Positions 36,743 to 62,229 of a stretch of 64,000 bases of DNA are shown here, piece by piece. Position 1 is the stretch's first letter; each line of letters opens with the position of its first letter. This DNA comes from Allobrachymonas chironomi DSM 19884 (lineage in GTDB: Bacteria; Pseudomonadota; Gammaproteobacteria; Burkholderiales; Burkholderiaceae_C), in assembly GCF_000374625.1 (NCBI RefSeq), contig NZ_KB894768.1, positions 109,232 to 173,231 of the forward strand, given 5' to 3'. The position numbers and the translations under genes are program-made. The notes below the pieces were generated by a model. It was not told the origin of the DNA and did no database searches. It saw only the letters and a program-made list of their open reading frames with translations.

Positions 36743-37633
36743 TTACAGCACGTTGAGCGGAATCTTCAGGTAGTGCGTGCCGTTGTCTTCGGCGGGTGGC
36801 AGCTGGCCGGCGCGGATGTTGACCTGCACTGCCGGCAGGATCAGCTTGGGCATGTCCAGCGTTTCGTCGCGGGCCGTGCGCATGCTGACAAAGGCGTCTT
36901 CGTCGATGCCGTCGTGCACGTGGATATTGCCGGCCTTGTGTCGGGCCACGGTGTGTTCGCAAAAGGCGGCCGGGTTGTCGGCCACGCCATCGGCGTAGTT
37001 GTGGCACAGGAAGAGGCGGGTATCGGCCGGTAGCGAGAGCAGGCGGCGCACCGAGTAGAACATCTGGTGCGCATCGCCGCCGGGAAAGTCGCAGCGTGCG
37101 GTGCCGGCATCGGGCGCGAACAGGGTATCGCCGACGAAAACCAGATCGGCTTCGCCTGCGGCCGTGATGACGTGGTAGGCCATGTCGGCCGGGGTGTGGC
37201 CGGGTACGTGCATGGCCTCGATGCGCAGGCTGCCCAGGTCCAGCCCCTGGCCTTCGGACAGCAGCAGGTCGAACTGGCTGCCGTCTGCCGCCAGATCCTT
37301 CAGGTTGTAGATGCCGCGAAAGGTTTTCTGCACGGTGGTGATCGGCTGGCCGATGACGATTTGGCCGCCGAGCTGCTGGCGCAGCCAGGGGGCGCTGGAG
37401 AGATGGTCGGCGTGGGCGTGGGTTTCCAGGATGTATTGCAGCTGCAGCTGGTTGTCTTGCACGAAGCGGATCAGCTGTTCGGCGCTGTCGGTGCGGGTGC
37501 GGCCGGACTTGGGGTCATAGTCCAGCACCGGATCGATGATGGCGCAGGCGCTGCCCGGGCCCTGGTCCAGCACGTAGCTGAAGGTGCTGGAGTAGCTGTC
37601 GAAATAGGGGGTGATACGCACGGCGGCGGTCAT
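36743..37633 (-). CDS. MBL-fold hydrolase, persulfide-dioxygenase-like (Blh type)
   Basis: The 296-residue metallo-beta-lactamase-fold protein has metal motif THAHADH (His72, His74, Asp76, His77), then MHVPGHTPADMAYHV and FVGDTLFAPDAGTARCDFPGGDA. The ETHAHADHLSSAPWLR version and FDSYSSTFSYVL opening match the ETHE1/Blh persulfide dioxygenases, which oxidise glutathione persulfide to sulfite. It lies 18 bases after a TauE/SafE exporter gene on the same strand. That pairing suggests sulfide or persulfide detoxification with sulfite export. A generic glyoxalase-II-like hydrolase is the alternative. Confidence 0.82.
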   Translation of the reverse strand: MTAAVRITPYFDSYSSTFSYVLDQGPGSACAIIDPVLDYDPKSGRTRTDSAEQLIRFVQDNQLQLQYILETHAHADHLSSAPWLRQQLGGQIVIGQPITTVQKTFRGIYNLKDLAADGSQFDLLLSEGQGLDLGSLRIEAMHVPGHTPADMAYHVITAAGEADLVFVGDTLFAPDAGTARCDFPGGDAHQMFYSVRRLLSLPADTRLFLCHNYADGVADNPAAFCEHTVARHKAGNIHVHDGIDEDAFVSMRTARDETLDMPKLILPAVQVNIRAGQLPPAEDNGTHYLKIPLNVL

Positions 37634-37651
37634 GGCAATCTCCTTGGGGGA

Positions 37652-38470
37652 TCAGGACAGGGCGATCAGGCCCGGGGCAAAGGTCTTGAGCAGCAGCAGC
37701 ACGGTGGCCAGCAGCACCAGCACGGCAAATCCGCGCTTGCTCCACAGTGTGGGCACGCGCGCCACCACCATGCGGCTGAACACCATGCCGACACAGGTGG
37801 CGATGACAAAGATCCAGCCCGAAGGCACGATGTCGCTGTGGCCAGCCAGCAGCATCTGCAGCACGGTGGAGCCGGACACCAGGGCAATCACGGCGAGCGA
37901 GGTGACAACAATGCTTTGCTGGGTGAGATTGCTGTAGCGCTGCAGCATCGGCACGATGAAGAAGCCGCCGCCCACGCCCAGCATGCCGGTCATCAGGCCG
38001 GTGGTGGCACCGATGAGGCCCAGCGTGGTGAAATGGGCGGGTGTCCAGGAGAACTTGCCGGTGTCGGGGTTGAGCTTGCAGGGGACATCGCGTTCGTAGC
38101 TGTGGGCGGCTTGCGCCCGGGAGGGTTTTTTCCAGCTGCGCCAGGCCACCAGCAGCATGATGGCGCTGAACAGGATGGCGAGGAAGGCGGCCGGCACCTG
38201 ATGCGCCGCCCACTGGCCGATCGGGGAGAACAGGACTCCCAGTAGCACCATGTAGAGTGCGGCCTTGTAGCGCACATGGCCCAGGCGCAGGCCGTCAGCC
38301 GCGCCGATGGCCGAGCCGAGGCCGACGGCCGCCAGCGCCACCGGCTTGGCGGCCACCATGCCCATGCCGGTCCCCAGCACCAGGGCCGGGATCGACAGAA
38401 TGCCGCCGCCGGCACCGGTCAGGCCCATGACGATGCCAATAAGGAGTCCGAGGAAAATGCTGCTGGTCAT
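37652..38470 (-). CDS. TauE/SafE family sulfite/organosulfonate exporter
   Basis: The 272-residue inner-membrane protein has about eight helices and the twin TauE repeats: LLIGIVMGLTGAGGGILSIPALVLG at the N-terminus, and GATTGLMTGMLGVGGGFFIVPMLQ in the middle. Members export sulfite, sulfoacetate or similar anions. The ATG giving MTSSIFLG is preferred over one 14 codons upstream, because a TATAAT ends only three bases before that upstream ATG, which would leave almost no leader. It forms a unit with the downstream persulfide-dioxygenase-like gene. Confidence 0.85.
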   Translation of the reverse strand: MTSSIFLGLLIGIVMGLTGAGGGILSIPALVLGTGMGMVAAKPVALAAVGLGSAIGAADGLRLGHVRYKAALYMVLLGVLFSPIGQWAAHQVPAAFLAILFSAIMLLVAWRSWKKPSRAQAAHSYERDVPCKLNPDTGKFSWTPAHFTTLGLIGATTGLMTGMLGVGGGFFIVPMLQRYSNLTQQSIVVTSLAVIALVSGSTVLQMLLAGHSDIVPSGWIFVIATCVGMVFSRMVVARVPTLWSKRGFAVLVLLATVLLLLKTFAPGLIALS

Positions 38471-38512
38471 GCGGAGATGGAGATGCGCGGGGCGCAAACG
38501 GTCAAGGTCCAT

Positions 38513-38536
38513 TCATTATATGTAAAAATAAAATGA
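38513..38536 (-). promoter_or_regulatory. AT-rich promoter with imperfect inverted repeat before the TauE/MBL pair
   Basis: An island of A/T in GC-rich DNA contains, on the - strand, TATAAT (38520-38515) and a TGTACA 16 bases upstream as a weak -35. Two arms, 38513-38521 and 38528-38536, match at 8 of 9 positions as an inverted repeat around the -10. That is the layout of an ArsR-type repressor site such as those of BigR/SqrR sulfide sensors (inference). No regulator gene is adjacent. Confidence 0.5.
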
Positions 38537-38553
38537 TGTACAGAGACAGGAAA

Positions 38554-38593
38554 GCCGCTGTGCCGGACCATGGGCAGGTCTGGCAGCAGCGGC
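38554..38593 (-). terminator. Possible terminator after the OsmC gene
   Basis: Arms 38554-38564 and 38582-38593 (GCCGCTG-TGCC and GGCAGCAGCGGC) pair with one bulge. On the - strand they are followed by TTTCC. This would separate the osmC transcript from the TauE promoter. Confidence 0.4.
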
Positions 38594-38615
38594 TGGCATG
38601 GGGCAGCAACCGGAA

Positions 38616-39161
38616 TCAGTCTGCCAGACCGATCTCGAATTGCACCGGGTTGCGGATGGTGTTGGCCACGGGCGAGTAGTAGTTGGCATGCTGCACGATG
38701 GCGTCCAGCTCCTCGCGGCTGGCATCGCCCTCGATCACGACCTTGACGCGTACGGCCTGGAAGCCCATCTGGCCCGGCTCGCGCTCGGCACCGCCGGCAC
38801 CCCAGGCAGCGGAGTTGCCGATGTCGCCTTCCAGAAACACTTCCAGCTTGCTCAGGCGCACCTGACGGTGGGTGGCCACGGCCGTGATGCCCACGGCCAG
38901 GCAGCCGCCCAGACCGGACAGCACCACTTCGCCCGGGGCCGGGGCGGTGTTCTGGCCGAACAGGTGCAGCGGCTCGTCCACCACCACGGCCGGGTGCATC
39001 GGGTCCGGGTTGGTCAGATAGCTCAGCGTGCGGTACTGGCCCACGCAGATGGTGTGGATCTTGTTGGTGCCACGGCGGTCGGGGTTGTTGCGGCCGACTT
39101 CGGCGAATTTTTCCAGGCCTTCGCGATCGATCGGGGCGAGGTATTGGGTGGTTTCAGACAT
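38616..39161 (-). CDS. OsmC/Ohr family protein
   Basis: The 181-residue protein has the OsmC-fold core GEVVLSGLGGCLAVGITAVATHRQVRLSKLEVFLEGD, with Cys87 at the peroxidatic position. The second, resolving Cys expected near the C-terminus is missing: the site reads NYYSPVANT. It may therefore use another thiol (Cys39 is present) or not be a classical Ohr peroxidase. Members handle organic hydroperoxides or reactive sulfur. MSETTQYLAP is taken as start. It is divergent from an AraC-family regulator, which may control it. Confidence 0.85.
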   Translation of the reverse strand: MSETTQYLAPIDREGLEKFAEVGRNNPDRRGTNKIHTICVGQYRTLSYLTNPDPMHPAVVVDEPLHLFGQNTAPAPGEVVLSGLGGCLAVGITAVATHRQVRLSKLEVFLEGDIGNSAAWGAGGAEREPGQMGFQAVRVKVVIEGDASREELDAIVQHANYYSPVANTIRNPVQFEIGLAD

Positions 39162-39257
39162 GGCTGGGCTCCTTGGCAAGTGCAGTGAAACGGAATCGAT
39201 GGGTCCATCTTACGGCGAGGGGTAGAATTCATATCTAAAAATTCACCCAATTTATTG

Positions 39258-40340
39258 ATGAATCGGATCGACATGTCCCCTGACTCAGCCACTTCTGCCG
39301 GCGACATGCTGGCCCGCCTGCTGGCCTGGGCGCGTTTGCGCGGCAGCCTGGACCTGCGCTGCCGCATGCAGCAGCATTTCTGGTTGCCGCACGACCAGGC
39401 GCCGGCCGGGGTGGCGCTGTTTCACACGGTGCTGCGGGGCGGTTGCCGGCTGGGTCTGCCGGATGGCCGCTGGCTGGCCTTGCGGCAGGGCGAGATGGTG
39501 GTGCTGCCGCGCGGACTGGCGCATGCGCTGGCGCCGCTGGAGGGCGACTTGCACGCAACTGCGGGCGAGGACGACACGCAGCGGCCGCTGCAGACTGGTG
39601 ACTGGCTGCCCTTGCGTACCAATATGTCCGGCGCAGACCAGGCTTGTGCTGCCGACAGCATGGATCTGGTGTGCGGGCGTTTTGTCTATGAGGGCGAGGC
39701 AGGGCAATTGCTGCTGCAGGCCCTGCCGGATGTGCTGGTGCTGGGCGGAGAGCCGGAGGCTCCGCTGGCCCAGGGGCTGCAGGTGGTAAGGGTGCCGCTG
39801 GTCTGGCCGCAGGACATGCCGCACGCCGGGGAGGTGCTGCACCCGGTGCTGGCGCTGGTGCAACTGCTGCGCCAGGAAGCGATGGCAGCCCAGCCCGCCG
39901 CGCTGGCCATGGCCGATGTGCTGACGCAGGCGCTGCTGCTGTACATGCTGCGCGCCTATGCCCAGTCGCCGGATGCGCACCGTATTCCGGGGGTGTTCAA
40001 TATCCTGGCAGAGCCGCGTCTGCGCCCGGTAGTGCAGGCCATGTGGCAGCAGCCGGGCGAGGACTGGTCGCTGGACCGTCTGGCGGCGTTGGCCGCCATG
40101 TCGCGGGCCACCTTTACCCGGCATTTTGCAGCCCATGCCGGCATGTCTCCCTGGAATTTCCTGATCCAGTTGCGCATGCTGCAGGGCATGGAGTGGTTGC
40201 GTGACCGCCGCTACAGCATTGCCCGGATTGCCGCCATGACCGGCTACCGCTCGGAATCGGCCTTCAATGTGGCCTTCCGCAAGTACAGCGGCCAGACCCC
40301 GGCGCGCTACCGGCGGGAGCATGGTCTGGCGGAGTCCTGA
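39258..40340 (+). CDS. AraC-family transcriptional regulator with N-terminal cupin domain
   Basis: The 360-residue protein has an N-terminal cupin-like sensing domain (about 15-200; LRGGCRLGLPDGRWLALRQGEMVVLPRGLAHAL) and a C-terminal double HTH (WSLDRLAALAAMSRATFTRHF and YSIARIAAMTGYRSESAFNVAFRKYSGQTPARYR). The ligand is unknown. It may regulate the divergent OsmC gene or the operon downstream. The latter has a sigma-54 promoter, which AraC proteins do not activate, so control of osmC or of itself is more likely. The start is uncertain: ATG at 39258, or 39273 where GGA lies at a good distance. Confidence 0.88.
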   Translation: MNRIDMSPDSATSAGDMLARLLAWARLRGSLDLRCRMQQHFWLPHDQAPAGVALFHTVLRGGCRLGLPDGRWLALRQGEMVVLPRGLAHALAPLEGDLHATAGEDDTQRPLQTGDWLPLRTNMSGADQACAADSMDLVCGRFVYEGEAGQLLLQALPDVLVLGGEPEAPLAQGLQVVRVPLVWPQDMPHAGEVLHPVLALVQLLRQEAMAAQPAALAMADVLTQALLLYMLRAYAQSPDAHRIPGVFNILAEPRLRPVVQAMWQQPGEDWSLDRLAALAAMSRATFTRHFAAHAGMSPWNFLIQLRMLQGMEWLRDRRYSIARIAAMTGYRSESAFNVAFRKYSGQTPARYRREHGLAES

Positions 40341-40359: not shown

Positions 40360-40374
40360 GCACCGGGCTGGTGC
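40360..40374. promoter_or_regulatory. NtrC-like enhancer palindrome
   Basis: The sequence GCACC-GGGCT-GGTGC matches the NtrC consensus GCACC-N5-GGTGC exactly in both arms. A further half-site GCACCA lies at 40389-40394. The palindrome is centred about 197 bases upstream of the start predicted from the sigma-54 promoter, a usual enhancer distance. Binding by NtrC is inferred. Confidence 0.55.
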
Positions 40375-40537: not shown

Positions 40538-40552
40538 TGGCACGGGGCTTGC
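40538..40552 (+). promoter_or_regulatory. Sigma-54 (RpoN) promoter of the cyanase operon
   Basis: TGGCACG-GGGC-TTGC matches the -24/-12 consensus (TGGCACG, 4 bases, TTGC) at every conserved position, with GG at 40539-40540 and GC at 40551-40552. Transcription would start near 40564. That excludes a start codon at 40553 for the first gene and supports the ATG at 40619. Such promoters need an enhancer-binding protein such as NtrC. Confidence 0.85.
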
Positions 40553-40618
40553 ATGACCCAGAGCAAGGACGCTGCAACCGGCATGCGTCCGCCGAACTTG
40601 CCTGGATGGAGGAATGTC

Positions 40619-41791
40619 ATGCAAATCACACAGGAACAGGCTGCGCAGTCAGAGCCGGCAGCAGCGGGCGGCGCGTGTTTTGACAGGAGCTGGACGGATG
40701 CGCAGGTGATGCAGGAGGTCGAGCGCATTGCCCAGGGACCGCTGGCCCGTGCGGCCTACAGCATCGATCAGGAGCATCTCTATCCCAAGGCCCTGATGGG
40801 TGAGCTGGGGCGTGCCGGGGCCTTTGCCGCGGCGCTGGATGCCGGTGGCCGGCGCTTTGCCCTGGGGCTGGATGCCATGCGCGCCATCAGCCGCTCTTGC
40901 GGTGCCACGGGTTTTCTGACCTGGGCCCACGATGTCTGCGGCATGTATCTGGAACAGTCCGGTAATCCGGCCCTGACGGGACGCCGGCTGCAGGACCACA
41001 TGCTGGGCCGTACCTTTGGTGGCACGGCCCTGTCGAATCCCATGAAGGCGCTGGCCGGTATCGAGCCGATGCAGCTCAAGGCCGAACCCGTGCGGGGCGG
41101 TTACCGCGTCAGCGGGGCGCTGCCCTGGGTCAGCCACATTGGCCAGGGACAGTACTGCGGCGCCATGGCCACCGTGTGCAAGCCGGGTGGCAGCCGTTCG
41201 CACGAGATCATGTTCCTGCTGGATATGGATGAACAGGTGGGGCTGCGCCCCTGCCCGGTGTTTTCGGGCATGGAGGGAACCAGCACCTGGGCGGTACGGC
41301 TGAACAACTACTTTGTGGGCCAGGATCTGCTGATTGCCGATCCGGTCCAGCCCCTGTTGCAGCGCATTCGTGCGGCGTTTGTCTTGTTGCAGGTAGGCAT
41401 TGCCGCAGGGGTGGCGCAGGGCGCCATCGATTCGATTCTGGAAGTGGAACCCATGCTGGGCCATGTGAACCAGTTTCTGGCGGACCGCCCCGACGTGCTG
41501 CAGGCCGAATACGAGGACCTGTGGCAGCGCGCCGCACGCCTGGCGCAAACGCCTTACGAGGAGAGCAGGGATTTTCTGCTGGAGGTGCTGGACCTGCGCG
41601 CCCAGGGTGGCGAATTTGCGCTGCGGGCTGCCAATTCGGCACTGCTGCACCAGGGCGCGCGCGGTTATCTGCTGCAGTCCCCGGTGCAGCGCCGGGTGCG
41701 GGAGGCGCAGTTTGTGGCGATTGTCACCCCGGCCATCAAGCACTTGCGCTGGGAAATGCACCGTCTGGGCCAGGAGGAGGTGCCGGCATGA
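40619..41791 (+). CDS. Acyl-CoA-dehydrogenase-fold flavoprotein, cyanase operon
   Basis: The 390-residue protein follows the acyl-CoA dehydrogenase plan: a helical N-terminal domain, a beta domain with [15 protein letters not shown] in place of the usual GY.LNG.K.WITN, and a C-terminal helical domain with [20 protein letters not shown]. At the position of the usual catalytic Glu (YEGT) it reads VTPA, with Thr370. FAD/FMN binding is expected from the fold. A dehydrogenase role is doubtful; ACAD-fold monooxygenases such as DszC are the closest functional analogy. The rubredoxin reductase gene overlaps its stop. GGAGGAATGTC precedes the ATG. It is about one third identical by eye to the protein at 58078. 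Confidence 0.8.
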
Positions 41792-43131
41792 GCGCGCAAG
41801 ACTGGAAGCAGTACATCTGCCGGGCCTGCGGCCTGATTTACGACGAGGAAGCCGGTGATCCGGACAGCGGTCTGGCACCGGGCACCCGGTTCGAGGCGAT
41901 TCCGGATGACTGGGTCTGCCCCTTGTGCGGCGTGACCAAGGCCGATTTCGATCCCTACGAGCGCGTGGTGGTGACGGCGGCGGCCGTGGCCGGCCAGCGG
42001 CTGCCGGTGCAGGGCGGGGTGGTGATCGTCGGGGCCGGACTGGCAGGCTGGTCGGTGGCCGAGGCACTGCGTGCGGCGCTGCCGGAAACCCCCATCACGC
42101 TGGTCAGCGCCTGCGCCGGAGACCGCTACCACAAGCCGGAACTGTCGCTGGCCCTGGGCAAGGGGCAGACCGCGGCAGATCTGGTAACCGAGACCGGCGC
42201 GGCTGCAGCAGGGCGATTGGGGCTGCGCTTGCTGGCGCACACGCAGATGGTGGGCCTGACGCCCGCGCTGCACCAGTTGCGTACCACACGCGGCCAGCTG
42301 CGCTACAGCCATCTGGTGCTGGCCCAGGGTGCCAGCCCGATGCTGCCGGACAGCCTGCCAGCCAGCCTGTGCTGGCGGGTCAACCACTTGCAGGGCTGGA
42401 GCGGCCTGCAGCAACGTCTGCAGGGCGGCCGCCGCGAGGTGCTGGTAATCGGTGCCGGCATGGTGGGCTGCGAACTGGCGGAAGACCTGGCACGCAGCGG
42501 CCATCAGGTCAGTCTGCTGGATCGCCAGTCCTGGCCGCTGGGCCAGCTGCTGCCCGAACTGGCAGGGCAGCGCCTGCGCCAGAGCCTGGAGGCGCAGGGC
42601 GTGCGCTACCTGGGTGCGGTGGAGGTGGCCAGCCTGCAGCAGCAGGGGGCACAGCGCCTGGTCACGCTGCAGGACGGCCGCCAGCTGCTGGCCGATGAGG
42701 TGGTGGCCGCCACCGGTCTGAAAGTGGCCTCGCGCCTGGTCCGCAGCGCCGGTCTGGCCTACGACAACGGGATCGTGGTGGATGCCGACACGCTGCAGAC
42801 CAGCGCGGCCGACGTGTTTGCCCTGGGCGACTGCATCAGCATCCACGGACGACCCTGCCGCTTCATCGAGCCGATTGCGCGCCAGGCGCAGGCCATTGCC
42901 CGGCAGATCGCCGGCCGGGGCAGCAGCGGCGCTGCCCACCAGCAGCCGGTGATCCGGCTCAAGACGCGGGCCCTGCCGGTGATCTTGCACGGTGTGCCGG
43001 TGGCCGGACGGGCCTGGACGGTCCTGGAAGACCGCGAGGGTTTGTTGCGCCTGCAACAGGCCCCGGAAGACGGCCGGCAACCGGTGCTGCTGCAACTGGG
43101 AGCAGGCCAGCCCATGCGGGCCGCAGCCTGA
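41788..43131 (+). CDS. Rubredoxin / NAD(P)H-rubredoxin reductase fusion
   Basis: The 447-residue fusion has an N-terminal rubredoxin domain with iron ligands Cys11, Cys14, Cys44 and Cys47 (CRACG...CPLCG). A pyridine-nucleotide disulfide-oxidoreductase domain follows: FAD loop [17 protein letters not shown] (about 78-94), a NAD(P)H loop [17 protein letters not shown], and the FAD-closing [11 protein letters not shown]. In one chain it can take electrons from NAD(P)H through FAD to rubredoxin iron. The start overlaps the flavoprotein stop by 4 bases, so the two are made together and it is the obvious electron donor. Normally these are two proteins, as in alkane hydroxylase systems. Confidence 0.9.
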
Positions 43132-43158
43132 CAGAGACGATTACAGAGGAATACCACC

Positions 43159-44556
43159 ATGCAGGATCACAACATCTATCGCCCCTACAGCCCGCTGGCA
43201 CGCCTGGGCGCATGCAGCTGCGGCGCCCATGCCAGCCAGCAAGCCCATGACGATGCCCTGACGCAACTGGCCGATGCCCGCCGCCGGCAGGACAGCGAGG
43301 CCTTGTCGCACGACTTCGTGGAGGCTGCCGCCGTGCAGGCCCTGTTCCCGGACCCGCAACTGCGCCGCAACTTCCTGCGCACCGTGGGCAGCGGCGTGGC
43401 CATGGCAGCCATTGGCAGCCTGCTGCCGCTGCAGGACCTTCAGGCCCGCGCCCTGGAACGCAAGGGCGGACTGGAAAAAACCGATCTGCGCATCGGCTTT
43501 GTCCCGATCACCTGTGCCACGCCCCTGATCATGGCCGGTCCGCTGGGCCTGTACCAGCAGCAGGGCCTGAACGTGCAGTTGCAGAAAACCGCAGGCTGGG
43601 CCCTGGTGCGCGACAAGCTGCTCAACCGCGAGCTGGATGCCTCGCACACCCTGTCGCCCATGCCGCTGGCGATTTCCATGGGGGCCGGTTCCAGCCCGCA
43701 GCCGATGCGGGTCATGGCGATCCAGAACATCAATGGCCAGGCCATCGTGATGGCACTCAAGCACCGCGAAAACCGCGATCCGCGCCACTGGAAGGGCTTC
43801 AAGTTTGCCGTGCCCTTCGAATATTCGATGCACAACTTCCTGCTGCGCTACTACCTGGCCGAGCATGGCCTGGACCCGGACCGCGACGTGCAGCTGCGCG
43901 TGACGCCGCCAGCCGAAATGATTGCCAACCTGCGCGCCGGCAATATCGACGGCTTTCTGGGGCCGGACCCGTTCTGCCAGCGGGCCGTGTACGACCGCGC
44001 GGGCTTCATCCACATCCTGACCCGCGACATCTGGGAAGGCCATCCCTGCTGCGCCTTTGGCGTCTCGCAGGCCTTCATCGACCAGCACCCGCAGACCTTT
44101 CTGGCCATGTACCGCGCCATCCTGCAGGCCACGGCGATGGCCAACAAGCCCGAAGAACGCCAGGCCATTGTCCAGGCCATCTCCGGGCCGGGCTATCTGA
44201 ACCAGCCGCCCATCGTGATCCAGCAGGTCTTGCGCGGCCGCTTTGCCGATGGCCTGGGCAAGGTCCGGGACGTGCCGGATCGCATCGGCTTCGATGCCAT
44301 GCCCTGGCATGCCATGGCCAGCTGGATGCTGACCCAGATGCAGCGCTGGGGCTACATCAAGGGCCAGGTGAACTACCGCCAGCTGGCCGAGCAGGTCTTT
44401 TTGATGACCGATGCCCGCCGCCTAATGCGGGAAGCCGGCTTGCCGCTGCCTCCCGGGGCCGACAGCGGCAGCCACCGCATCACGGTCATGGGCAAGGTCT
44501 TTGACCCGGCCAGGCCTGAAGCCTACCTGCGCAGCTTTGCCATCCGGCGCACTTGA
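43159..44556 (+). CDS. NrtA/CynA-type ABC transporter substrate-binding protein with Tat-like signal
   Basis: The 465-residue protein belongs to the nitrate/cyanate/bicarbonate binding-protein family (NrtA/CmpA-like): LRIGFVPITCATPLIMAGPLGLYQQQGLNV, HTLSPMPLAISMG, GFLGPDPFCQRAVYD. It has an unusual N-terminus of about 68 residues with ACSCGAHASQ (Cys19, Cys21, His24) before RRNFLRTVGSG and a hydrophobic stretch, a twin-arginine export signal set far inside. Cyanate is the most likely ligand because cynS is in the operon. A cyanate precursor, nitrate or another small anion cannot be excluded. Confidence 0.85.
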   Translation: MQDHNIYRPYSPLARLGACSCGAHASQQAHDDALTQLADARRRQDSEALSHDFVEAAAVQALFPDPQLRRNFLRTVGSGVAMAAIGSLLPLQDLQARALERKGGLEKTDLRIGFVPITCATPLIMAGPLGLYQQQGLNVQLQKTAGWALVRDKLLNRELDASHTLSPMPLAISMGAGSSPQPMRVMAIQNINGQAIVMALKHRENRDPRHWKGFKFAVPFEYSMHNFLLRYYLAEHGLDPDRDVQLRVTPPAEMIANLRAGNIDGFLGPDPFCQRAVYDRAGFIHILTRDIWEGHPCCAFGVSQAFIDQHPQTFLAMYRAILQATAMANKPEERQAIVQAISGPGYLNQPPIVIQQVLRGRFADGLGKVRDVPDRIGFDAMPWHAMASWMLTQMQRWGYIKGQVNYRQLAEQVFLMTDARRLMREAGLPLPPGADSGSHRITVMGKVFDPARPEAYLRSFAIRRT

Positions 44557-44582
44557 GAAACCCACAGGAAAGGAACTGCATC

Positions 44583-45473
44583 ATGTTGAACTCCCTACGA
44601 CTCCGTGCCGCGCTGCTGTCACTGCTGTTGCTGGCCGTGCTGGTGGGCATCTGGCACATCAGCACCAGCAGCCCGGCCCTGCAGACGCCTGTTGCCGGGC
44701 TGTCCATTACCGCCGAAGAGCGCGAATACGCGATCCTGATGGGCGATTTGCCGGCCGACGACGCTGCTGCCGACAGCAGCGCAGCCCGTCAGGACGGCTT
44801 CCCGACCCCGCTGCAATTTGCCACCAGCGCTGCCAGCAGCATCGCCGACCCGTTCTACGACAACGGCCCCAACGACAAGGGCATCGGCCTGCAACTGGGC
44901 TATTCGCTGGCGCGGGTCGCGCTGGGCTATGCCCTGGCAGTGCTGGTGGCGATTCCGCTGGGCTTCGTGATCGGCATGTCGCCGCTGCTGTACCGGGCGC
45001 TGGACCCCTTCATCCAGATCCTGAAACCGATCTCGCCACTGGCCTGGATGCCGATTGCGCTGTACACGATCAAGAATGCGAACATCTCGGCCATCTTCGT
45101 GATCTTCATCTGCTCGGTCTGGCCGATGCTGGTCAACACCGCCTTTGGCGTGGCCAATGTGCGCAAGGACTGGCTGAACCTGTCGCGCACACTGGAAGTG
45201 TCGCCGCTGCGCGCAGCCTTCCGGGTGATTCTGCCGGCTGCGGCACCCACCATCATCACCGGCATGCGGATTTCCATGAGCATTGCCTGGCTGGTGATCG
45301 TGGCAGCCGAAATGCTGATTGGCGGTACCGGTCTGGGCTACTACGTGTGGAACGAGTGGAACAACCTGTCGCTGTCCAACGTGATCTTTGCGGTCCTGCT
45401 GATCGGCCTGGTAGGCATGTTGCTGGACCAGATGTTTGCCCAACTCCAGAAGAAGGTGACCTATGTTGACTGA
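44583..45473 (+). CDS. NrtB/CynB-type ABC transporter permease
   Basis: The 296-residue inner-membrane protein has an N-terminal helix (about 9-27), a periplasmic stretch with acidic ADDAAADSS, and a core of about five helices. The EAA loop [36 protein letters not shown] and [23 protein letters not shown] are typical of NrtB/SsuC-like permeases. AGGAAAGGA supports the ATG; an in-frame ATG 30 bases earlier overlaps the previous gene. It overlaps the ATPase gene by 11 bases. Confidence 0.9.
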
Positions 45474-46425
45474 AGTCCTGCCCCCCCTGGCCAGCCCCGA
45501 GGCCCCCATGTCCCACGCGCGCTCCGGCCACCAGTCCTTTCTGCAGGTCGAAGGCCTGGCCAAGCGCTACCGCGCCGATCTGCCACCGGTGTTCGAGGAT
45601 GTCCATTTCGGCATCGACAAGGGCGAGTTTGTCTGCGTGATCGGCCACTCCGGTTGCGGCAAGAGCACTATCCTGAACGTGATGGCCGGTCTGGAAGAGG
45701 CCAGCGCCGGCATGGTGTTCATGGATGGTCGCGAGGTGGCCGGCCCCAGTCTGGACCGTGGCGTGGTGTTCCAGAGCCATGCCTTGCTGCCCTGGCTGAG
45801 CGCCGAGGACAACCTGGTGTTTGCACTGCGCTCGCGCCAACCGGACTGGAACCGCAAGGCGATTGTGGAGGAGGCCGGCAAATACCTGGACATGGTGGGA
45901 CTGGGCGCCGCCGCGCGCAAGAAGCCTTCCGAACTGTCGGGCGGCATGAAGCAGCGTGTCGGCATTGCCCGGGCCTTTGCCGTGGCTCCCAAGATGCTGC
46001 TGATGGATGAGCCCTTTGGCGCGCTGGATGCCCTGACGCGCGGCGTGATCCAGGACGAATTGCTGCGCATCTGCAAGGAAACCCAGCAAACCGTGTTCAT
46101 GATCACGCATGATGTGGATGAGGCCATTCTGCTGGCCGACCGCATCTTCCTGATGAGCAACGGGCCGTATGCCAATGTGGCCGAGGTGGTGGTCAATACC
46201 TTGCCACGCAGCCGGACTCGCGACACCATGATCCATGACCCGCAGTACTACCGCATCCGCAACCACCTGCTGGACTTTCTGGTGCACCGCTCCGGGCTGG
46301 CACAGCAACAGGCCGAGCAGCATGCGGGTCAGCGCAGCAGTGGCAGCCGTTCCGGCATCCGGACCCGGGTGGTCTACCCGGGACTGGCCGATCCGGAGCC
46401 CTTGCTGCAAGATCCGGCTATCTGA
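45463..46425 (+). CDS. NrtD/CynD-type ABC transporter ATPase
   Basis: The 320-residue ATPase energises the importer. It has Walker [11 protein letters not shown]-loop [17 protein letters not shown], signature [15 protein letters not shown] and Walker [13 protein letters not shown]. The switch His lies in [31 protein letters not shown] is typical of the nitrate/cyanate group. About 50 extra residues at the C-terminus (Gln/Ser/Arg-rich) have no visible domain. Confidence 0.9.
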
Positions 46426-46488
46426 AACCCTTGTCTTTTCCCCGTCTGTTTTTCTTTTCACTTCACTGTTACTTCAAGGAGCTTCACC

Positions 46489-46938
46489 ATGATTTCCGAC
46501 CGTTCCCAAGTTACCGCCATGATTCTGTCGGCCAAGGTGGCCAAGGGCATCAAGTGGGCCGATGTGGCCCAGGCCGTAGGCATGAGCAAGGAGTGGACCA
46601 CGGCAGGCTGCCTGGGCCAGATGACTTTCACCAAGCCGCAGGCCGAAACCATTGGTCAGCTGTTCGACCTCAGCGACGAGGCCGTGGCCTGGCTGCAGGT
46701 GGTGCCCTACAAGGGCGGACTGCCCACCGCCGTGCCCACCGATGCACTGCTGTACCGCTTCTACGAAATCATCAGCGTCTATGGCGGCAGCATCAAGGAG
46801 CTGATCCACGAGGAATTTGGCGATGGCATCATGAGCGCGATCGATTTCTCCATGGATATCCAGCGCGAAAACGACCCCAAGGGCGATCGCGTCAACATCG
46901 TGCTGTCCGGCAAGTTCCTGCCGTACAAGAGCTACTGA
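46489..46938 (+). CDS. cynS: Cyanate hydratase (cyanase)
   Basis: Cyanase converts cyanate and bicarbonate to ammonia and CO2 via carbamate, giving usable nitrogen and removing a toxic carbamoylating agent. The 149-residue protein has an N-terminal helix-turn-helix-like domain and the catalytic C-terminal part LLYRFYEIISVYGGSIKELIHEEFGDGIMSAIDF. The triad is Arg90, Glu93 and Ser116, with exactly the E. coli spacing (Arg96, Glu99, Ser122). AAGGAGCTTCACC precedes the ATG. It closes the operon. No carbonic anhydrase gene (cynT) is beside it. Confidence 0.97.
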   Translation: MISDRSQVTAMILSAKVAKGIKWADVAQAVGMSKEWTTAGCLGQMTFTKPQAETIGQLFDLSDEAVAWLQVVPYKGGLPTAVPTDALLYRFYEIISVYGGSIKELIHEEFGDGIMSAIDFSMDIQRENDPKGDRVNIVLSGKFLPYKSY

Positions 46939-53983: not shown

Positions 53984-55015
53984 TTACTCCCCAAACACCA
54001 CCAACCCCCGATCCTGCTGCAAACGCACCCCGATCATTTCCCCAGGCGTGTGCTGCAGCACCGCCGGCATGGTCGCCTGTACCGTGCTGCCATCGGCCAG
54101 TTCCAGCGTGTAGATCTGGTGGCTGCCCTGGTAGGAGCTGCCGAGCAGGCGGGCGTGGATCGGCGAGAGCGGGTCGTACTGCAGATCGTGGCTGCGCAGC
54201 AGCAGCTGGCGGCTGTTGGCGGCGTGCTGGCCGGGCAGGGCGCCCAGTGCCGATTGCAGCTGGCCGTTGGCATCGGCCTGGATGGGCAGCAGCATGCCGT
54301 GCCCGATGAAACGCGCTACAAATGGCGTGGCGGGGGCATCGTACAGGGTGCGGGCATCGGCCCATTGCTGCATGCGGCCCTGGTCCAGTACGCCGATGCG
54401 ATCGCCCATGGCAAAGGCTTCCTGCTGGTCGTGCGTGACAAGCAGGGTGGTGGTGCCGGTCTGCTTGAGCAGGGTGCGCAGCTCCTGCGCCAGGCGTTCG
54501 CGCAGGTTGATGTCGAGGTTGGAAAAGGGCTCGTCCAGCAGCAGCAGGCGCGGGTCCGGGGCCAGGGCGCGGGCCAGGGCGACGCGCTGTTGCTGGCCGC
54601 CCGAGAGCTCGTGCGGGTAGCGCTTGCCCAGATCGGCCAGGCCGACCAGTTCCAGCACCTCGGCGGTGCGTTGGCGCTGGCGTTCCGCCGGCTGGCCATG
54701 CAGGCCGTAGGCGATATTGCGCTCCACGCTCAGATGCGGGAACAGGGCGTAATCCTGGAACACCATGCCCATCTGGCGCTGCTCCGGCGGCGTGGTCTGG
54801 CCGGGGCGGCTCAGCGTCTGGCCGGCCAGCGTCAGCGTACCGCTGGCCAGCGGCTCCAGTCCGGCCACGCCGCGCAGCAGCGTGGTCTTGCCGCAGCCCG
54901 AAGGGCCCAGCAGCACGCCGATATCGCCGGCCGCCAGCCCGAAAGACACCTGATGCACGGCATCGACCGGCTGGCCGGAATAGCGGATGGAAACCTGGTC
55001 GAGGGACAGATGCAT
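53984..55015 (-). CDS. fbpC: Ferric iron ABC transporter ATPase (FbpC type)
   Basis: The 343-residue ATPase has Walker A GPSGCGKTT, Q-loop FQDYALFPHLSVERNIAYGL, signature LSGGQQQRVALARAL, Walker B LLLLDEPFSNLD and switch His LVTHDQQEA. A C-terminal TOBE-like regulatory domain (about 235-343) follows. The Q-loop/GL pattern and the C-terminal domain fit FbpC. It is divergent from a two-domain permease of the same system, with a Fur box between. MHLSLDQVSIRY is the start; sequence further upstream lies in the regulatory region. Confidence 0.9.
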   Translation of the reverse strand: MHLSLDQVSIRYSGQPVDAVHQVSFGLAAGDIGVLLGPSGCGKTTLLRGVAGLEPLASGTLTLAGQTLSRPGQTTPPEQRQMGMVFQDYALFPHLSVERNIAYGLHGQPAERQRQRTAEVLELVGLADLGKRYPHELSGGQQQRVALARALAPDPRLLLLDEPFSNLDINLRERLAQELRTLLKQTGTTTLLVTHDQQEAFAMGDRIGVLDQGRMQQWADARTLYDAPATPFVARFIGHGMLLPIQADANGQLQSALGALPGQHAANSRQLLLRSHDLQYDPLSPIHARLLGSSYQGSHQIYTLELADGSTVQATMPAVLQHTPGEMIGVRLQQDRGLVVFGE

Positions 55016-58077: not shown

Positions 58078-59199
58078 ATGGATGCCAGTTTCAACCCGAT
58101 CCACCTGCCTGCAGCCAGCCTGATCCAGGACACGGCTGCGCTGGCCAAGGTGGAGTTGCGGCCGCTGGTGGCGCAAATCGATCAGGAAGGCCTGTATCCC
58201 GAAGCCTTTCTGCGCACGCTGGGCGCCATTGGCGGTTTTGCCAGCATTGGCAGCGAAGCACAGGGCGGCACGGCGCTGGGGCTGGGCACACAAATCCGTA
58301 CCCTGGCCACGGTAGGTGCCGAGTGCGGCTCCACCGCCTTCCTGGGCTGGTGCCAGAGCGCCTGCGGCTGGTATCTGCGCCAGACACCGAATGCCGCAGT
58401 GCGCGAACGCTATCTGCCACAGGTGATGCGCGCCACGGCGCTGGCCGGCACCGGCATGTCCAACACCGTCAAGCACCTCAGCGGCATCGAGAAGCACCTG
58501 CTGCAGGCGCGCCCGGAAGGGGAGGGCTTTGTGGTCAACGGCAGCCTGCCCTGGGTGTCCAACCTGGGCGAATCGCATGTGTTTGCCGCCAGCGCCCAGC
58601 TGCCGGATGGCCGCTACATCATGTTCATGGCGCGTGGCGATGCCGCTGGCGTGACGCTCAAGCCCTGCCCGGAATTCTGTGCCCTGGAAGGCACGCGTAC
58701 GCTGAACGTACGCTTTGTCGATGTGCGCATCGAGCAGGCTGACCTGCTGGCCGATGCCGAGCAGTTCGAGGATTTCATCCGCAGCATCAAGCCGGGCTTC
58801 ATTCTGCTGCAGATCGGCATGGGTGCCGGCGTGATCGAGGCCTGCCTGAAGACGATTCGCGACAGCAACCTGGCCACGCCGAAGCCGAACGCCTATCTGG
58901 ACGACCAGTACGACACCTTGCGCGCCGAGCTGGATGCATTGCTGCTGCGCACGCAGGAACTGGCCGATCAGGCCGATGCCGGCACGGTGGCCATGCTGCC
59001 GGTACTGGAAGTCCGGCTGGCGGCCAGCGAACTGGCGCTGCGTGCGGCACAATCGGCCGCGCTGCATGCAGGCGCAAAAGGCTATCTGATGCGCCATGCA
59101 GCGCAGCGACACTCGCGCGAGGCGCTGTTCGTGGCGATCGTGACGCCGGCGATCAAGCACCTGCGCCTGGAAATCGAACGCCTGCGTGCGCAAGGCTGA
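58078..59199 (+). CDS. Acyl-CoA-dehydrogenase-fold flavoprotein, second module
   Basis: The 373-residue paralogue of the protein at 40619 has the same three-domain plan: VGAECGSTAFLGWCQSACGWYL, GEGFVVNGSLPWVSNLGESH, and a C-terminal [32 protein letters not shown]. Thr355 stands where acyl-CoA dehydrogenases commonly have the catalytic Glu; the [12 protein letters not shown] block is identical in both paralogues. It is the first gene of an operon with rubredoxin and a nitrate/sulfonate-type importer. CAAGGAGTAGCGCCAC precedes the ATG. A monooxygenase or desulfonation-type role in nutrient scavenging is inferred. Confidence 0.8.
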   Translation: MDASFNPIHLPAASLIQDTAALAKVELRPLVAQIDQEGLYPEAFLRTLGAIGGFASIGSEAQGGTALGLGTQIRTLATVGAECGSTAFLGWCQSACGWYLRQTPNAAVRERYLPQVMRATALAGTGMSNTVKHLSGIEKHLLQARPEGEGFVVNGSLPWVSNLGESHVFAASAQLPDGRYIMFMARGDAAGVTLKPCPEFCALEGTRTLNVRFVDVRIEQADLLADAEQFEDFIRSIKPGFILLQIGMGAGVIEACLKTIRDSNLATPKPNAYLDDQYDTLRAELDALLLRTQELADQADAGTVAMLPVLEVRLAASELALRAAQSAALHAGAKGYLMRHAAQRHSREALFVAIVTPAIKHLRLEIERLRAQG

Positions 59200-59217
59200 G
59201 CAACAAGGAAAGACAAG

Positions 59218-59379
59218 ATGAAATGGATGTGCGGCCCCTGTGGCTATATCTACGACGAGGAAGAGGGCTACGCCCCGGACGGTATCGAACCGGGTACGCC
59301 GTTCCACAAGCTGCCGGATGGCTGGGTCTGCCCCGATTGCGGTCTGGGCCAGGATGAATTTTTCGAGATCCCCGAGTGA
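59218..59379 (+). CDS. Rubredoxin
   Basis: This 53-residue one-iron electron carrier has ligands Cys5, Cys8 (CGPCG) and Cys38, Cys41 (CPDCG). [20 protein letters not shown] and [11 protein letters not shown] are diagnostic of rubredoxin, and the length is standard. AAGGAAAGACAAG gives a good ribosome site. It lies 18 bases after the flavoprotein gene, and its stop shares bases with the ATPase start (TGATG), so translation is coupled. It probably carries electrons to the flavoprotein. No reductase is in this operon; the fusion at 41788 could serve. Confidence 0.95.
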
Positions 59380-60200
59380 TGACAGCTGCCGATGCTGCTG
59401 CGCCCCTGTTGCAGGGACGCGATATTTCGCTGGGCTACGCACGTGCCGATGGCAGCACCCAGTGGGTGCTGGAAGGCTTTTCCATTGACGTGCAGCCAGG
59501 CGAACTGATTGCGCTGCTGGGCCCCAGCGGTGTTGGCAAGTCCTCGCTGCTGCGCGTGCTGGCCGGCTTGCAGCCGCCGCAGAAAGGCCAGGTGCGGCTG
59601 TTTGGCGAGCCGCTGACGGCGCCGCATCCGCGTGCCGCCTTCGTGTTCCAGAGCGCCTCGCTGCTGCCCTGGCTCACGGTGCAGGACAACGTGGCCTTTG
59701 GCCTGTCCTTCAAGCACCAGCCGGCCATTGGCAAGCAGGCCGAGCGCGAACGCGTGCGTCAGGCGCTGACCGAGGTGAACCTGCTGCATGCGGCCACGCA
59801 GCACCCGTCGCAGCTGTCGGGCGGCATGGCGCAGCGTGTGGCGCTGGCACGTGCCTTTGCGCGCCAGCCCGAGGTGCTGATGCTGGACGAGCCGTTCAGC
59901 GCGCTGGACGAGATCACGCGGGGCGAAATGCAGGTGCTGCTGCGCGACCTGGTGACACGCCACCAGACTGCGGCCATTCTGGTCACGCACGATATCGATG
60001 AAGCCCTGACCGTGGCCGATCGCGTGCTGCTGATTGGCAATACGCCGGGCCGTCTGCTGGCCGAATGGCGGCTGGAGCAGCCTTACCCGCGCGATGATGT
60101 CGCCCTGACCATGAACGAACAGCGTTTGCAGATCCTGCAATCGATGCGCAATGCGCGCCTGTTCCAGCAGGACATGCACAGTCTCGAATACGTTATCTGA
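59379..60200 (+). CDS. Nitrate/sulfonate/taurine-type ABC transporter ATPase
   Basis: The 273-residue ATPase has Walker A GPSGVGKSS, Q-loop FVFQSASLLPWLTVQDNVAFGL, signature LSGGMAQRVALARAF, Walker B LMLDEPFSALDE and LVTHDIDEALTVADRVLLIG. This is the SsuB/TauB/NrtD group. The ATG overlaps the rubredoxin stop by one base. The order ATPase, binding protein, permease differs from the first module (binding protein, permease, ATPase). Confidence 0.92.
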   Translation: MTAADAAAPLLQGRDISLGYARADGSTQWVLEGFSIDVQPGELIALLGPSGVGKSSLLRVLAGLQPPQKGQVRLFGEPLTAPHPRAAFVFQSASLLPWLTVQDNVAFGLSFKHQPAIGKQAERERVRQALTEVNLLHAATQHPSQLSGGMAQRVALARAFARQPEVLMLDEPFSALDEITRGEMQVLLRDLVTRHQTAAILVTHDIDEALTVADRVLLIGNTPGRLLAEWRLEQPYPRDDVALTMNEQRLQILQSMRNARLFQQDMHSLEYVI

Positions 60201-60271
60201 GCCGATCTTCCTGCATTTGCATTCATCTGCAGCCATCTGCACGATTTACCCGTTACTTCTGGAGAATTTCC

Positions 60272-61441
60272 ATGGTTTCACGCCGCGACATGCTGAAGCT
60301 GGCCTCGCTGTTCACCGCTGCCGGCAGTCTGCCGCTGCTGCAGGCCTGCCAGCGCCAGCAGGCCAGCCAGCCCGATGCGCCCCTGCGCATCGGCTATTTG
60401 CCGATTACCGATGCCACGCCGCTGCTGGTGGCGCACAGCCAGGGCCTGTTCCAGGCCGAGGGGCTGAATGTGGAGCAGCCCAGGCTGTTCCGCAGCTGGG
60501 CCCAGCTGGTGGAAGCCTTCATCAGCGGCCAGGTGAATCTGGTGCACCTGCTGACGCCCATGACGGTGTGGGCACGCTATGGCAGCGAAAGCCCGCTCAA
60601 GGTGCTGATGTGGAACCACATGGCCGGCTCCGCGCTGACCGTGCTGCCCGATGTCAACACGGTGGCGGATCTGGGTGGCAAGACCGTGGCGATTCCGTTC
60701 TGGTACTCGATCCACAACGTGGTGCTGCAGCATCTGCTGCGCGAGGGCGGCCTGGAAGTGACCGAGAAGGATCCCGGCCCGAAGCAGGTCAAGCTGACCG
60801 TGATGGCGCCGTCCGACATGGTGGCGGCGCTGGCAGCCAAAAGCATTGCCGGCTTCATCGTGGCCGAACCGTTCAATGCCGCGGCCGAGCTGCAGGGCGT
60901 GGGCAAGGTGCTGCGCTTTACCGGCGATGTCTGGCGTGACCACGCCTGCTGCGTCACGGTGGCGCATGCGGCCGATGTGGAGCAGCGCCCCGAATGGATG
61001 CAGAAGGTGGCGAATGCCATGGTCAAGGCGCAGCTGTGGTCACGCGAGCATCGTCCCGAGGTGGCGCAGCTGTTGTCGGCCGATGGCGCCGGCAAGTACA
61101 CGCCGCACCCGCTGCCGGTGCTGCAGAAGGTGTTGGCACCGGATGCTGCCGATCTGCAGCAGTATGTGCAAAGTGGCGCGATCCGCCATCCGGACTGGAG
61201 GCAGAACCGCATCGACTTCCAGCCCTATCCCTTCCCGAGCTATACCAGCGAGCTGGTAAAGCTGCTGCAGCAGACGCATATTGCCGGCGAACACCGTTGG
61301 CTGGCCAAGCTGGATCCGCAGCAGGTGGCGCAGGATCTGGTGGATGAGCGCTTTGTGCGCCAGGCCATCGAGAACACGCAGAGCCAGCAACTGTTCGGGC
61401 TGCCGGCCGATTACCGCCGCACCGAAACCATCGTGGCCTGA
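60272..61441 (+). CDS. ABC transporter substrate-binding lipoprotein, NrtA/SsuA-like
   Basis: The 389-residue precursor has a Tat-type SRRDMLKLA motif (residues 3-11) followed by a lipobox LQAC with Cys26, so it is probably exported folded and lipidated. The binding domain has LRIGYLPITDATPLLVAHSQGLFQAEGLNV, NLVHLLTPMTVWARYG, WYSIHNVVLQHLL and AGFIVAEPFNAAAEL, like nitrate/taurine-type binding proteins and the binding protein at 43159. The ligand is unknown. It lies 71 bases after the ATPase with GGAGAATTTCC before the ATG. Confidence 0.88.
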   Translation: MVSRRDMLKLASLFTAAGSLPLLQACQRQQASQPDAPLRIGYLPITDATPLLVAHSQGLFQAEGLNVEQPRLFRSWAQLVEAFISGQVNLVHLLTPMTVWARYGSESPLKVLMWNHMAGSALTVLPDVNTVADLGGKTVAIPFWYSIHNVVLQHLLREGGLEVTEKDPGPKQVKLTVMAPSDMVAALAAKSIAGFIVAEPFNAAAELQGVGKVLRFTGDVWRDHACCVTVAHAADVEQRPEWMQKVANAMVKAQLWSREHRPEVAQLLSADGAGKYTPHPLPVLQKVLAPDAADLQQYVQSGAIRHPDWRQNRIDFQPYPFPSYTSELVKLLQQTHIAGEHRWLAKLDPQQVAQDLVDERFVRQAIENTQSQQLFGLPADYRRTETIVA

Positions 61442-61461
61442 GCGCCAGCAGAAAGGATTGC

Positions 61462-62229
61462 ATGTCGTCGATCAAGCAGGGGCCGTGGCGCTCCGCAACC
61501 CTGGCACTGGCCGGACTGGTGCTGCTGGCGGTGGCCTGGCAGCTGGGCGTGATGCTGCTCAGGACCGGCATGCCGATTGTCGGCCGCTTTGCGCCGCTGC
61601 CGACGCTGGACAGCCTGCTGTTCCTGCTGGGCGATGCCGGCATTTACGGCCATATCCTGGCCAGCCTGCAGCGCGTGCTGATCGGTCTGGCGCTGGCCCT
61701 GCTGATCGGCGTGCCGGTCGGGCTGCTGCTGGGCCGTTCACGCCTGGCCGAGCAGCTCAGTGGCGGTGCCTTCCAGCTGCTGCGCATGATCTCGCCGCTG
61801 TCCTGGATGCCGATTGCGGTGATGGTGTTTGGCGTGGGCGATGCGCCGATCTACTTTCTGCTGACCTTTGCCGCTGTCTGGCCGATCATCCTGAACACCA
61901 GTGCCGGCGTGAAGGCGATAGACCGCCACTGGCTGCAGCTGGGGGCATCGCTCAGCGCCACCCGCTGGGAGGCACTGCGCAGCATCATCTTCCCGGCGGT
62001 GGTCGGACATATCCTGACCGGCCTGCGGCTGGCGATTGGTGTGGTCTGGATCGTGCTGGTGCCTTGCGAAATGCTGGGCGTGAATGAAGGCCTGGGCTAT
62101 TTCATCCTGGATACGCGGGATCGGCTGGCCTATTCGGAGCTGATGGCGGCGGTGCTGCTGATTGGCCTGATCGGCTGGCTGCTGGATGCACTGGCGCGCT
62201 GGCTGCACCGGCGCTGGGCGATGGCCTGA
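61462..62229 (+). CDS. Nitrate/sulfonate/taurine-type ABC transporter permease
   Basis: The 255-residue inner-membrane protein has about six helices and the family blocks LIGVPVGLLLGRS, ISPLSWMPIAVMVFGVGDAPIYF and the EAA loop LQLGASLSATRWEALRSIIFPAVVGHILTGLRLAIG. It closes the second flavoprotein-rubredoxin-importer operon and is followed by a strong hairpin. Confidence 0.92.
   Translation: MSSIKQGPWRSATLALAGLVLLAVAWQLGVMLLRTGMPIVGRFAPLPTLDSLLFLLGDAGIYGHILASLQRVLIGLALALLIGVPVGLLLGRSRLAEQLSGGAFQLLRMISPLSWMPIAVMVFGVGDAPIYFLLTFAAVWPIILNTSAGVKAIDRHWLQLGASLSATRWEALRSIIFPAVVGHILTGLRLAIGVVWIVLVPCEMLGVNEGLGYFILDTRDRLAYSELMAAVLLIGLIGWLLDALARWLHRRWAMA

Follow-up and report, generated by a model that had tools for sequence, protein, structure and literature searches.

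The 64,000-nucleotide stretch of Allobrachymonas chironomi DSM 19884 analysed here (GCF_000374625.1, contig NZ_KB894768.1, positions 109,232-173,231 of the forward strand; hereafter the window) carries an operon that joins a flavoprotein of the acyl-CoA dehydrogenase (ACAD) fold and a rubredoxin-reductase fusion to an NrtABC-type importer and cyanase. Judging from sequence comparisons, we propose that this operon may constitute a nitrogen-starvation route from thiocyanate through cyanate to ammonia, with the flavoprotein acting as an O2-dependent, rubredoxin-fed thiocyanate monooxygenase, a reading to which we give an even chance. A fuller version, held tentatively and at somewhat under an even chance, is that it represents a third enzymatic route of thiocyanate breakdown, in which a rubredoxin-fed, O2-dependent ACAD-fold monooxygenase and a cysteine-bearing OsmC protein would split an S-oxygenated intermediate into cyanate and persulfide, and that this is a widespread proteobacterial nitrogen-starvation pathway.

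The operon and its flavoprotein

Open reading frame calls and profile searches place a sigma-54 site followed by six colinear plus-strand genes at 40538-46938, bearing out the original prediction of six genes, of the families claimed, behind a single promoter. The first gene (40619-41791; PF02771) encodes the ACAD-fold flavoprotein, our proposed thiocyanate monooxygenase, and the second (41788-43131) a rubredoxin domain (PF00301, 76.6 bits) fused to a NorW-like NAD(P)H/FAD reductase (PF07992, 147.3 bits); the fusion scores above the cut-off of the rubredoxin model NF045768 and reaches 249.5 bits with the NorW model, under its cut-off of 392. There follow an NrtA/CynA-type substrate-binding protein with a Tat-like signal (43159-44556; PF13379, 272.9 bits; TIGR01409, 17.6 bits, cut-off 16.7), an NtrB-type ABC permease (44583-45473; TIGR01183, 229.7 bits, cut-off 209; PF00528), an NtrCD-type ABC ATPase (45463-46425; TIGR01184, 296 bits, cut-off 291.8; PF00005) and the cyanase CynS (46489-46938; TIGR00673, 170 bits, cut-off 113.3; PF02560 and PF21291). 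A cyanase gene adjoining an NrtABC-type importer, with TIGR00673, TIGR01183 and TIGR01184 all above cut-off, is the arrangement of CynABDS cyanate systems. The genes had been described as mostly overlapping, which is too strong: overlaps occur at two of the five junctions (-4 and -11 bp), the other three being gaps of 27, 26 and 63 bp. The flavoprotein most likely starts at ATG 40619, which is preceded by GGAGG, because the upstream ATG 40553 overlaps the end of the promoter's -12 element.

The positions of MCAD Glu376 and IVD Glu254 have catalytic roles in acyl-CoA dehydrogenases. In the flavoprotein, which does have the ACAD fold, the former is Thr370 in 81/81 sequences, while the latter falls on Leu257 or Val255 depending on whether the HMMER alignment is to SCAD or to 8i4p; no Glu or Asp occurs in any of the 81 between residues 250 and 262, a stretch that includes this position whichever alignment is used. 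Three cysteines of the flavoprotein, Cys94, Cys107 and Cys212, are invariant. With no acidic residue at either position, the protein is, from its sequence, unlikely to be an ordinary acyl-CoA dehydrogenase, the outcome named beforehand as fatal to the idea of an oxygenating enzyme. Its adjacent partner is the rubredoxin-reductase, and no ETF (electron-transfer flavoprotein) gene is found among the six. Class D flavin monooxygenases have a separate flavin reductase; at the locus, to which this comparison was confined, the fusion takes that place. The best NCBIfam match of the flavoprotein is a weak one to 3-sulfinopropionyl-CoA desulfinase (28.3 bits, cut-off 600), whose structure 5af7 is also among the fold matches, and that to HsaA is weak too (18.1 bits, cut-off 450).

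A second gene set, probably sulfur-handling, lies upstream of the operon and diverges from it on the minus strand (36743-39161). It encodes an OsmC-family protein, proposed as the sulfur-accepting partner (38616-39161; PF02566, 72.3 bits), a TauE/SafE (TSUP) exporter, proposed to export sulfite (37652-38512; PF01925, 129.7 bits), and a persulfide-dioxygenase-like protein of the metallo-beta-lactamase (MBL) fold (36743-37633; PF00753, 68.3 bits), whose best NCBIfam match, NF040641 Blh, scores 337.5 bits over the dioxygenase part only, against a two-domain cut-off of 625. The OsmC protein has one invariant cysteine, Cys87 (counted from the ATG at 39161), which is Cys in 80/80 sequences. Neither these genes nor a paralogous module at 58078-62229, described below, figured in the original prediction.

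Conservation of the module and its link to cyanase

A scan of one genome per species over 84,980 species returned 449 relatives, the best-scoring 80 of which serve as named loci, with gene counts taken from tblastn passes (L031 and L044 are one contig, and only L044 is counted in the 80). Alpha-, beta- and gammaproteobacteria all have representatives with the flavoprotein core, and genera with the module include Paraburkholderia, Burkholderia, Pseudomonas and Stutzerimonas. Rubredoxin and then reductase lie directly downstream of the flavoprotein in all 80 loci. An OsmC-family gene stands beside it in 79, on the same strand and at most 400 bp upstream in 78, and the one locus that misses it, L076, begins at a contig end. 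CynS is encoded within the locus in 44 of the 80 and elsewhere in the genome for 31 of the remaining 36 (one of the 31 a fragment with a stop), giving cynS in 75/80 flavoprotein genomes, that fragment included; the five genomes without it are draft metagenome-assembled genomes (MAGs). SBP1-type importers are found in 40/80 loci and SBP2-type importers in 13/80, and the importer varies more than the OsmC-flavoprotein-rubredoxin core. The original prediction had proposed a joint search for co-occurrence of the non-cynS proteins; flavoprotein and reductase are paired in 80/80 loci, and those 13 loci have a different type of importer. A persulfide-dioxygenase-like MBL protein is encoded near the flavoprotein in 30 of the 80 loci, TauE/SafE in 17 and a rhodanese in 11; in L044, from the same genus as the window, the rhodanese gene lies directly downstream of cynS.

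At 14 MAG loci (L052, L054, L058, L063, L067, L071, L072, L078, L081, L082, L084, L086, L087 and L093) the OsmC-flavoprotein-reductase core adjoins an Ldh_2-family dehydrogenase, mostly together with a cupin. These are mostly Alcaligenaceae or betaproteobacterial by title, and 13 of the 14 genomes have cynS at another place, one of these 13 having just a fragment. Two of the contigs, L081 and L087, are titled Bordetella parapertussis but share their gene order with the environmental Alcaligenaceae MAGs, and these two titles look like errors of taxonomic labelling.

The association with cynS was also seen in a survey of 200 genomes of the window's order, drawn regardless of the flavoprotein and scored for flavoprotein matches at E <= 1e-60, a threshold that admits the paralog lineage too. 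cynS occurs in 46 of these genomes and a flavoprotein match in 14, with cynS in 9 of the 14 versus 37 of the 186 others (Fisher p = 0.0007), or in 8/13 when the window's own genome is left out (p = 0.002); in 6 of the 14, cynS lies within 11 kb of the flavoprotein. Within the window's genus, cynS is present in both genomes that have this flavoprotein (G000 and G006) and missing from the three that have only the paralog (G002, G004 and G007, the last of which is 76% complete). Four further genomes of the same family (G010, G013, G019 and G022) carry both flavoprotein and cynS.

As a control, loci were read in the same way in 20 of 37 cynS genomes lacking the flavoprotein and compared with the 51 of the 80 flavoprotein loci that are at least 17 kb long. 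Because taxa and centring are not the same in the two sets, and because flavoprotein loci supplied the probes, the p-values should be read as indicative. OsmC is found in 51/51 flavoprotein loci versus 0/20 controls, MBL in 27/51 versus 0/20 (p = 8e-6) and TauE in 15/51 versus 0/20 (p = 0.007), with rhodanese in 7 and a sigma-54 activator in 46 of the 51; neither of these last two had any match in the 20 control loci. The importer is no different, with SBP1 in 34/51 and the same importer adjoining cynS in 11/20 (p = 0.42). The sulfur genes thus track the flavoprotein rather than cynS, whereas the importer accompanies both. Since the control loci lack the sulfur genes and 11 of the 20 have the importer, cynABDS is a free-standing cyanate system, and the flavoprotein, OsmC and sulfur genes are an add-on that would make cyanate and release sulfur. 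The existence of cynS and the importer without the flavoprotein had been put forward as grounds for abandoning the original prediction; such loci do exist, both among our controls and in the cynFABDS cluster (as described in the available part of PMC6627978), and rather than sinking the idea they show the flavoprotein set as an add-on.

Proposed route, its control and the alternatives

The simplest substrate would be thiocyanate, as the cyanase outlet and a likely sulfane-sulfur by-product point to a compound with a cyano group and sulfur, parted by oxidation. In our model the CynABD-type importer may take up thiocyanate and/or cyanate, and electrons from NAD(P)H would pass to the rubredoxin domain of the fusion and on to the FAD of the flavoprotein, as the domains and their 80/80 pairing suggest. 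The reduced flavin would react with O2 to form a flavin hydroperoxide, which would oxygenate the sulfur of SCN- to give OSCN-. A thiol, probably OsmC Cys87, the natural candidate because it is the single invariant cysteine, would capture OSCN- as RS-SCN, and attack of water on the nitrile carbon would then yield cyanate and a persulfide. CynS would convert cyanate and bicarbonate to ammonia and CO2, the reaction established for its family, while the MBL-fold protein and TauE/SafE, going by their families, may respectively oxidise the persulfide sulfur to sulfite and export the sulfite. An oxygenating flavoenzyme feeding cyanate to CynS, as originally predicted, is our best reading of the operon: it fits the catalytic positions devoid of acidic residues, the constant reductase pairing, the frequency of cynS in these genomes and the sigma-54 promoter. 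Thiocyanate-like compounds were among the candidates then listed, and the sulfur genes now sharpen the reading to thiocyanate.

The promoter, TGGCACGGGGCTTGCA (-24/-12 type; 40538-40553, plus strand), is the sole exact match to TGGCACGNNNNTTGCW in the window. With one mismatch allowed, three sites occur there where chance alone predicts 1.9, and little weight could therefore be put on a looser match. The 2.5-Mb genome holds six exact sites, that of the operon included, versus none for the reversed control, and one of the other five precedes a gene recognised as glnA by eye, without a family search. In relatives, 56/76 testable loci have a sigma-54 site, allowing up to two mismatches, in the 250 bp upstream of osmC, against a background of 2.9% of 1520 random 250-bp stretches from the same loci, coding parts included, and a GAF-AAA-Fis sigma-54 activator lies beside the module in 59/80. 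A search of the window's genome for an ortholog of this dedicated activator found none, returning only NtrC and one other protein, at 44-45% (CynF itself was outside the comparison). Since that ortholog was not found and NtrC is encoded in the genome (TIGR01818, 656 bits), NtrC probably drives the promoter here in place of the relatives' activator, and we infer that this lineage has shifted the operon to NtrC control. Some 165 bp ahead of the promoter is an exact NtrC-like dyad, GCACC-N5-GGTGC (40360-40374, plus strand), a candidate enhancer; exact dyads number three in the window versus 0.3 expected, and 29 in the genome versus three for the reversed control. The window's other two are at 54655-54669 and 59455-59469, the second within the ATPase gene of the paralogous module.

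Between the two gene sets, at 39255-40340, lies a gene for a Cupin_6/HTH AraC-type regulator, which also adjoins the operon in L044. Among NCBIfam models the regulator scores best with RclR, although its 129.5 bits fall far short of the cut-off of 400. RclR senses reactive chlorine and hypothiocyanite. We considered this regulator as a component of the system and rejected it: its cluster is confined to five members in four loci, the window included, so it is probably a genus-level feature.

The same machinery could act on another small sulfur- and nitrogen-containing substrate, such as an isothiocyanate, a thiocarbamate, a thiourea-like molecule or a thiocyanate ester, likewise yielding cyanate and sulfane sulfur. 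We think this unlikely, though well worth weighing, since the cyanase and sulfur genes would fit such substrates too, the importer superfamily includes SsuA-like proteins and SBP2-type importers occur in 13 of the loci; most of these candidates, however, need another enzyme to reach cyanate, none is seen in the conserved core, and on chemical grounds it is thiocyanate among them that should yield cyanate in one sulfur-removal step. Plain cyanate assimilation by importer and CynS, with OsmC, flavoprotein and rubredoxin forming an add-on for oxidative or reactive-sulfur stress or detoxification that makes no cyanate, is in our judgement quite improbable. It would account for the control loci with importer and cynS alone, OsmC proteins are peroxidase-like, and the MBL, TauE and rhodanese families handle reactive sulfur, yet it leaves unexplained why 75/80 flavoprotein genomes have cynS and why, in the window, a single conserved promoter of nitrogen type precedes a colinear flavoprotein and cynS. 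We regard as very improbable indeed a true acyl-CoA dehydrogenase of unusual specificity that passes its electrons to rubredoxin and is linked to cynS incidentally: the fold and nearest solved structures are those of acyl-CoA dehydrogenases, but the acidic residues are missing throughout the 81 sequences, the six genes include none for ETF and the cynS linkage spans distant proteobacteria. Cyanide was also considered as the substrate and rejected, as a cyanide monooxygenase is undemonstrated according to the part of PMC11049912 available and the sulfur genes would be left unexplained.

Several points weigh against the thiocyanate reading itself. The choice of substrate is drawn from gene neighbourhood, and as the importer is indistinguishable from the plain cyanate importer of flavoprotein-less loci, its uptake of thiocyanate is putative. 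The matches listed in two fold searches (50 each) are mostly acyl-CoA dehydrogenases or close kin, and no monooxygenase is named among them, although such an absence proves nothing. Electrons could in principle flow from substrate to rubredoxin; the onward reduction of NAD+ by rubredoxin is energetically uphill. The 80 loci, being the best-scoring of 449, are not a random sample, MBL and TauE genes lie near the flavoprotein in just 30 and 17 of them (counted at the loci rather than genome-wide), and the rhodanese enrichment over controls is not significant (p = 0.18). In the order survey, five of the 14 genomes with a flavoprotein match are without cynS (G044, G079, G108, G169 and G222): G079 and G222 belong to the paralog lineage, G108 has a fused reductase with no OsmC found, and G044 and G169 have OsmC with no rubredoxin found nearby. 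The NtrC-like dyad, exact and enriched as it is, is not conserved at the promoter of L044, so we take it as suggestive only and not as proof of NtrC control. Cyanase next to thiocyanate genes has proved misleading before, and the available part of PMC5328954 cautions that its activity is not enough to recognise the cyanate pathway. Finally, Methylorubrum thiocyanatum, which alone in the set is linked to thiocyanate by name and description, has the module (L101), but its phenotype proves nothing for it and was set aside as evidence, because the same genome has a thiocyanate hydrolase gene that explains the phenotype (gamma subunit; TIGR03887, 360.5 bits, cut-off 291.45; closest to 2dd4). Beside that gene, at L138 873-2522, is one whose product resembles the hydrolase beta subunit over its first half and the alpha subunit over the rest, an apparent beta-alpha fusion.

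The paralogous module and known systems

The paralogous module, also on the plus strand, comprises a second ACAD-fold flavoprotein, ACAD2 (58078-59199; 41% identical to the first and in a separate clade), a stand-alone rubredoxin with a CxxCG...CPxCG motif (59218-59379), and an ABC ATPase, SsuA-like binding protein and permease (59376-62229); reductase, OsmC and cynS have no match within 58078-62229. Close relatives of this module occur in four genomes of the same genus (L037, L038, L040 and L041), three of which lack both the first flavoprotein and cynS. It is probably a scavenging system for some other small compound of sulfur or nitrogen, and two modules in one window offer a built-in comparison of two specificities. 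A tree was built from 52 of 53 rows (one outgroup row of 21 residues was dropped) with 22 hand-picked members of the 80 named loci; its rooting is for drawing only, its bootstrap is unsettled and one outgroup row, with an end branch of 6.6, fell among the ingroup. In this tree the arrangement of OsmC, separate rubredoxin and divergent cynABDS (L124-L127) lies outside the fused-reductase clade. The window's paralog belongs to a different clade, accompanied by rubredoxin and, in the genus of the window, by an importer of SsuA-like type, but not by OsmC. An SBP2-type importer together with cynS is characteristic of one gammaproteobacterial clade (five rows, marine genera, 100/100), and this importer type appears again in L134, elsewhere in the tree. 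Two distant ACAD homologs (L042 and L043, 29-31%) also have an importer of this SsuA-like type as a neighbour, but no rubredoxin was found close to them, which suggests a broader class of importer-linked ACAD-fold enzymes.

According to sources available in part, gold mining and other industries give rise to thiocyanate as a toxic by-product. The available parts of PMC5778177 and PMC5328954 name two mechanisms for its degradation, the COS pathway and the cyanate pathway, and report that heterotrophs of several genera use it as a nitrogen source, with no gene set given there. In a heterotroph-rich consortium SCN- was degraded in oxic and not in anoxic cultures, with inhibition by ammonium (PMC6440457, in part), and the reference titles of that paper include thiocyanate degradation by Burkholderia phytofirmans and by a Pseudomonas putida / P. 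stutzeri association. This behaviour is consistent with our model without being proof of it, because the known routes are aerobic too (PMC5778177, in part) and predict the same. If our proposal is true, microbes would have a third way to degrade a common cyanide-related pollutant, and heterotrophic use of thiocyanate as a nitrogen source would be explained; for the heterotroph gap the module would offer a concrete gene set and a new enzyme type, tied to nitrogen control and oxygen. The original prediction knew of no described pathway with this set, and the combination of flavoprotein, rubredoxin, OsmC and cyanase was indeed not found described in a search of titles and the beginnings of abstracts that had most subscription papers and preprints outside its reach. 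The terms thiocyanate monooxygenase and thiocyanate oxygenase did not occur in the papers that the search listed, nor do the main texts of the proteomic studies of Pseudomonas pseudoalcaligenes CECT5344 (PMC5333837 and PMC10433974) mention acyl-CoA dehydrogenase, OsmC or rubredoxin.

The nearest described gene cluster is cynFABDS of P. pseudoalcaligenes CECT5344, which in the available part of PMC6627978 likewise combines an NrtABC-type importer and CynS with a putative sigma-54 promoter and is reported to be repressed by ammonium; most relatives of the module described here also have a sigma-54 activator, but cynFABDS as described there includes no flavoprotein, rubredoxin reductase or OsmC, unlike the window's operon. 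The thiocyanate dehydrogenase of Thioalkalivibrio shares the net chemistry we propose, from thiocyanate to cyanate and sulfane sulfur and then to cyanase, but according to the available parts of PMC5328954 and PMC5778177 it is a copper protein, coupled to cytochrome c and serving energy, whereas here an NAD(P)H- and rubredoxin-fed, O2-dependent flavoprotein would serve nitrogen supply. A PF18764 search for the copper enzyme gave no match in the window's genome, and none in the control genomes either. The enzyme is a nosZ-like beta-propeller. Thiocyanate hydrolase, of the COS pathway, has in common with our model the use of thiocyanate as a nitrogen source and differs in belonging to the nitrile hydratase family and in making COS and ammonia. 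The alpha-subunit model for this family (NHase-alpha/ScnC, PF02979), which was positive in two of four other genomes, has no match in the window's genome (G000), which therefore has no thiocyanate hydrolase of the nitrile-hydratase-alpha family. The genome of L085, Stutzerimonas stutzeri 24a75, was likewise negative for this model.

On the enzyme side, ACAD-fold flavin monooxygenases such as HsaA and DszC share with the flavoprotein both the fold and, as proposed, oxygenation. They are missing the dehydrogenase glutamate and use free reduced flavin supplied by a flavin reductase; here a rubredoxin-reductase fusion adjoins instead. In 3-sulfinopropionyl-CoA desulfinase (5af7), for which we know of no rubredoxin partner, the fold has likewise been repurposed for sulfur chemistry, in that case a non-redox desulfination of an acyl-CoA. 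If our proposal is true, the flavoprotein of the window would be another ACAD-fold enzyme turned from dehydrogenation to heteroatom chemistry, and its OsmC partner would give this OsmC subfamily a role.

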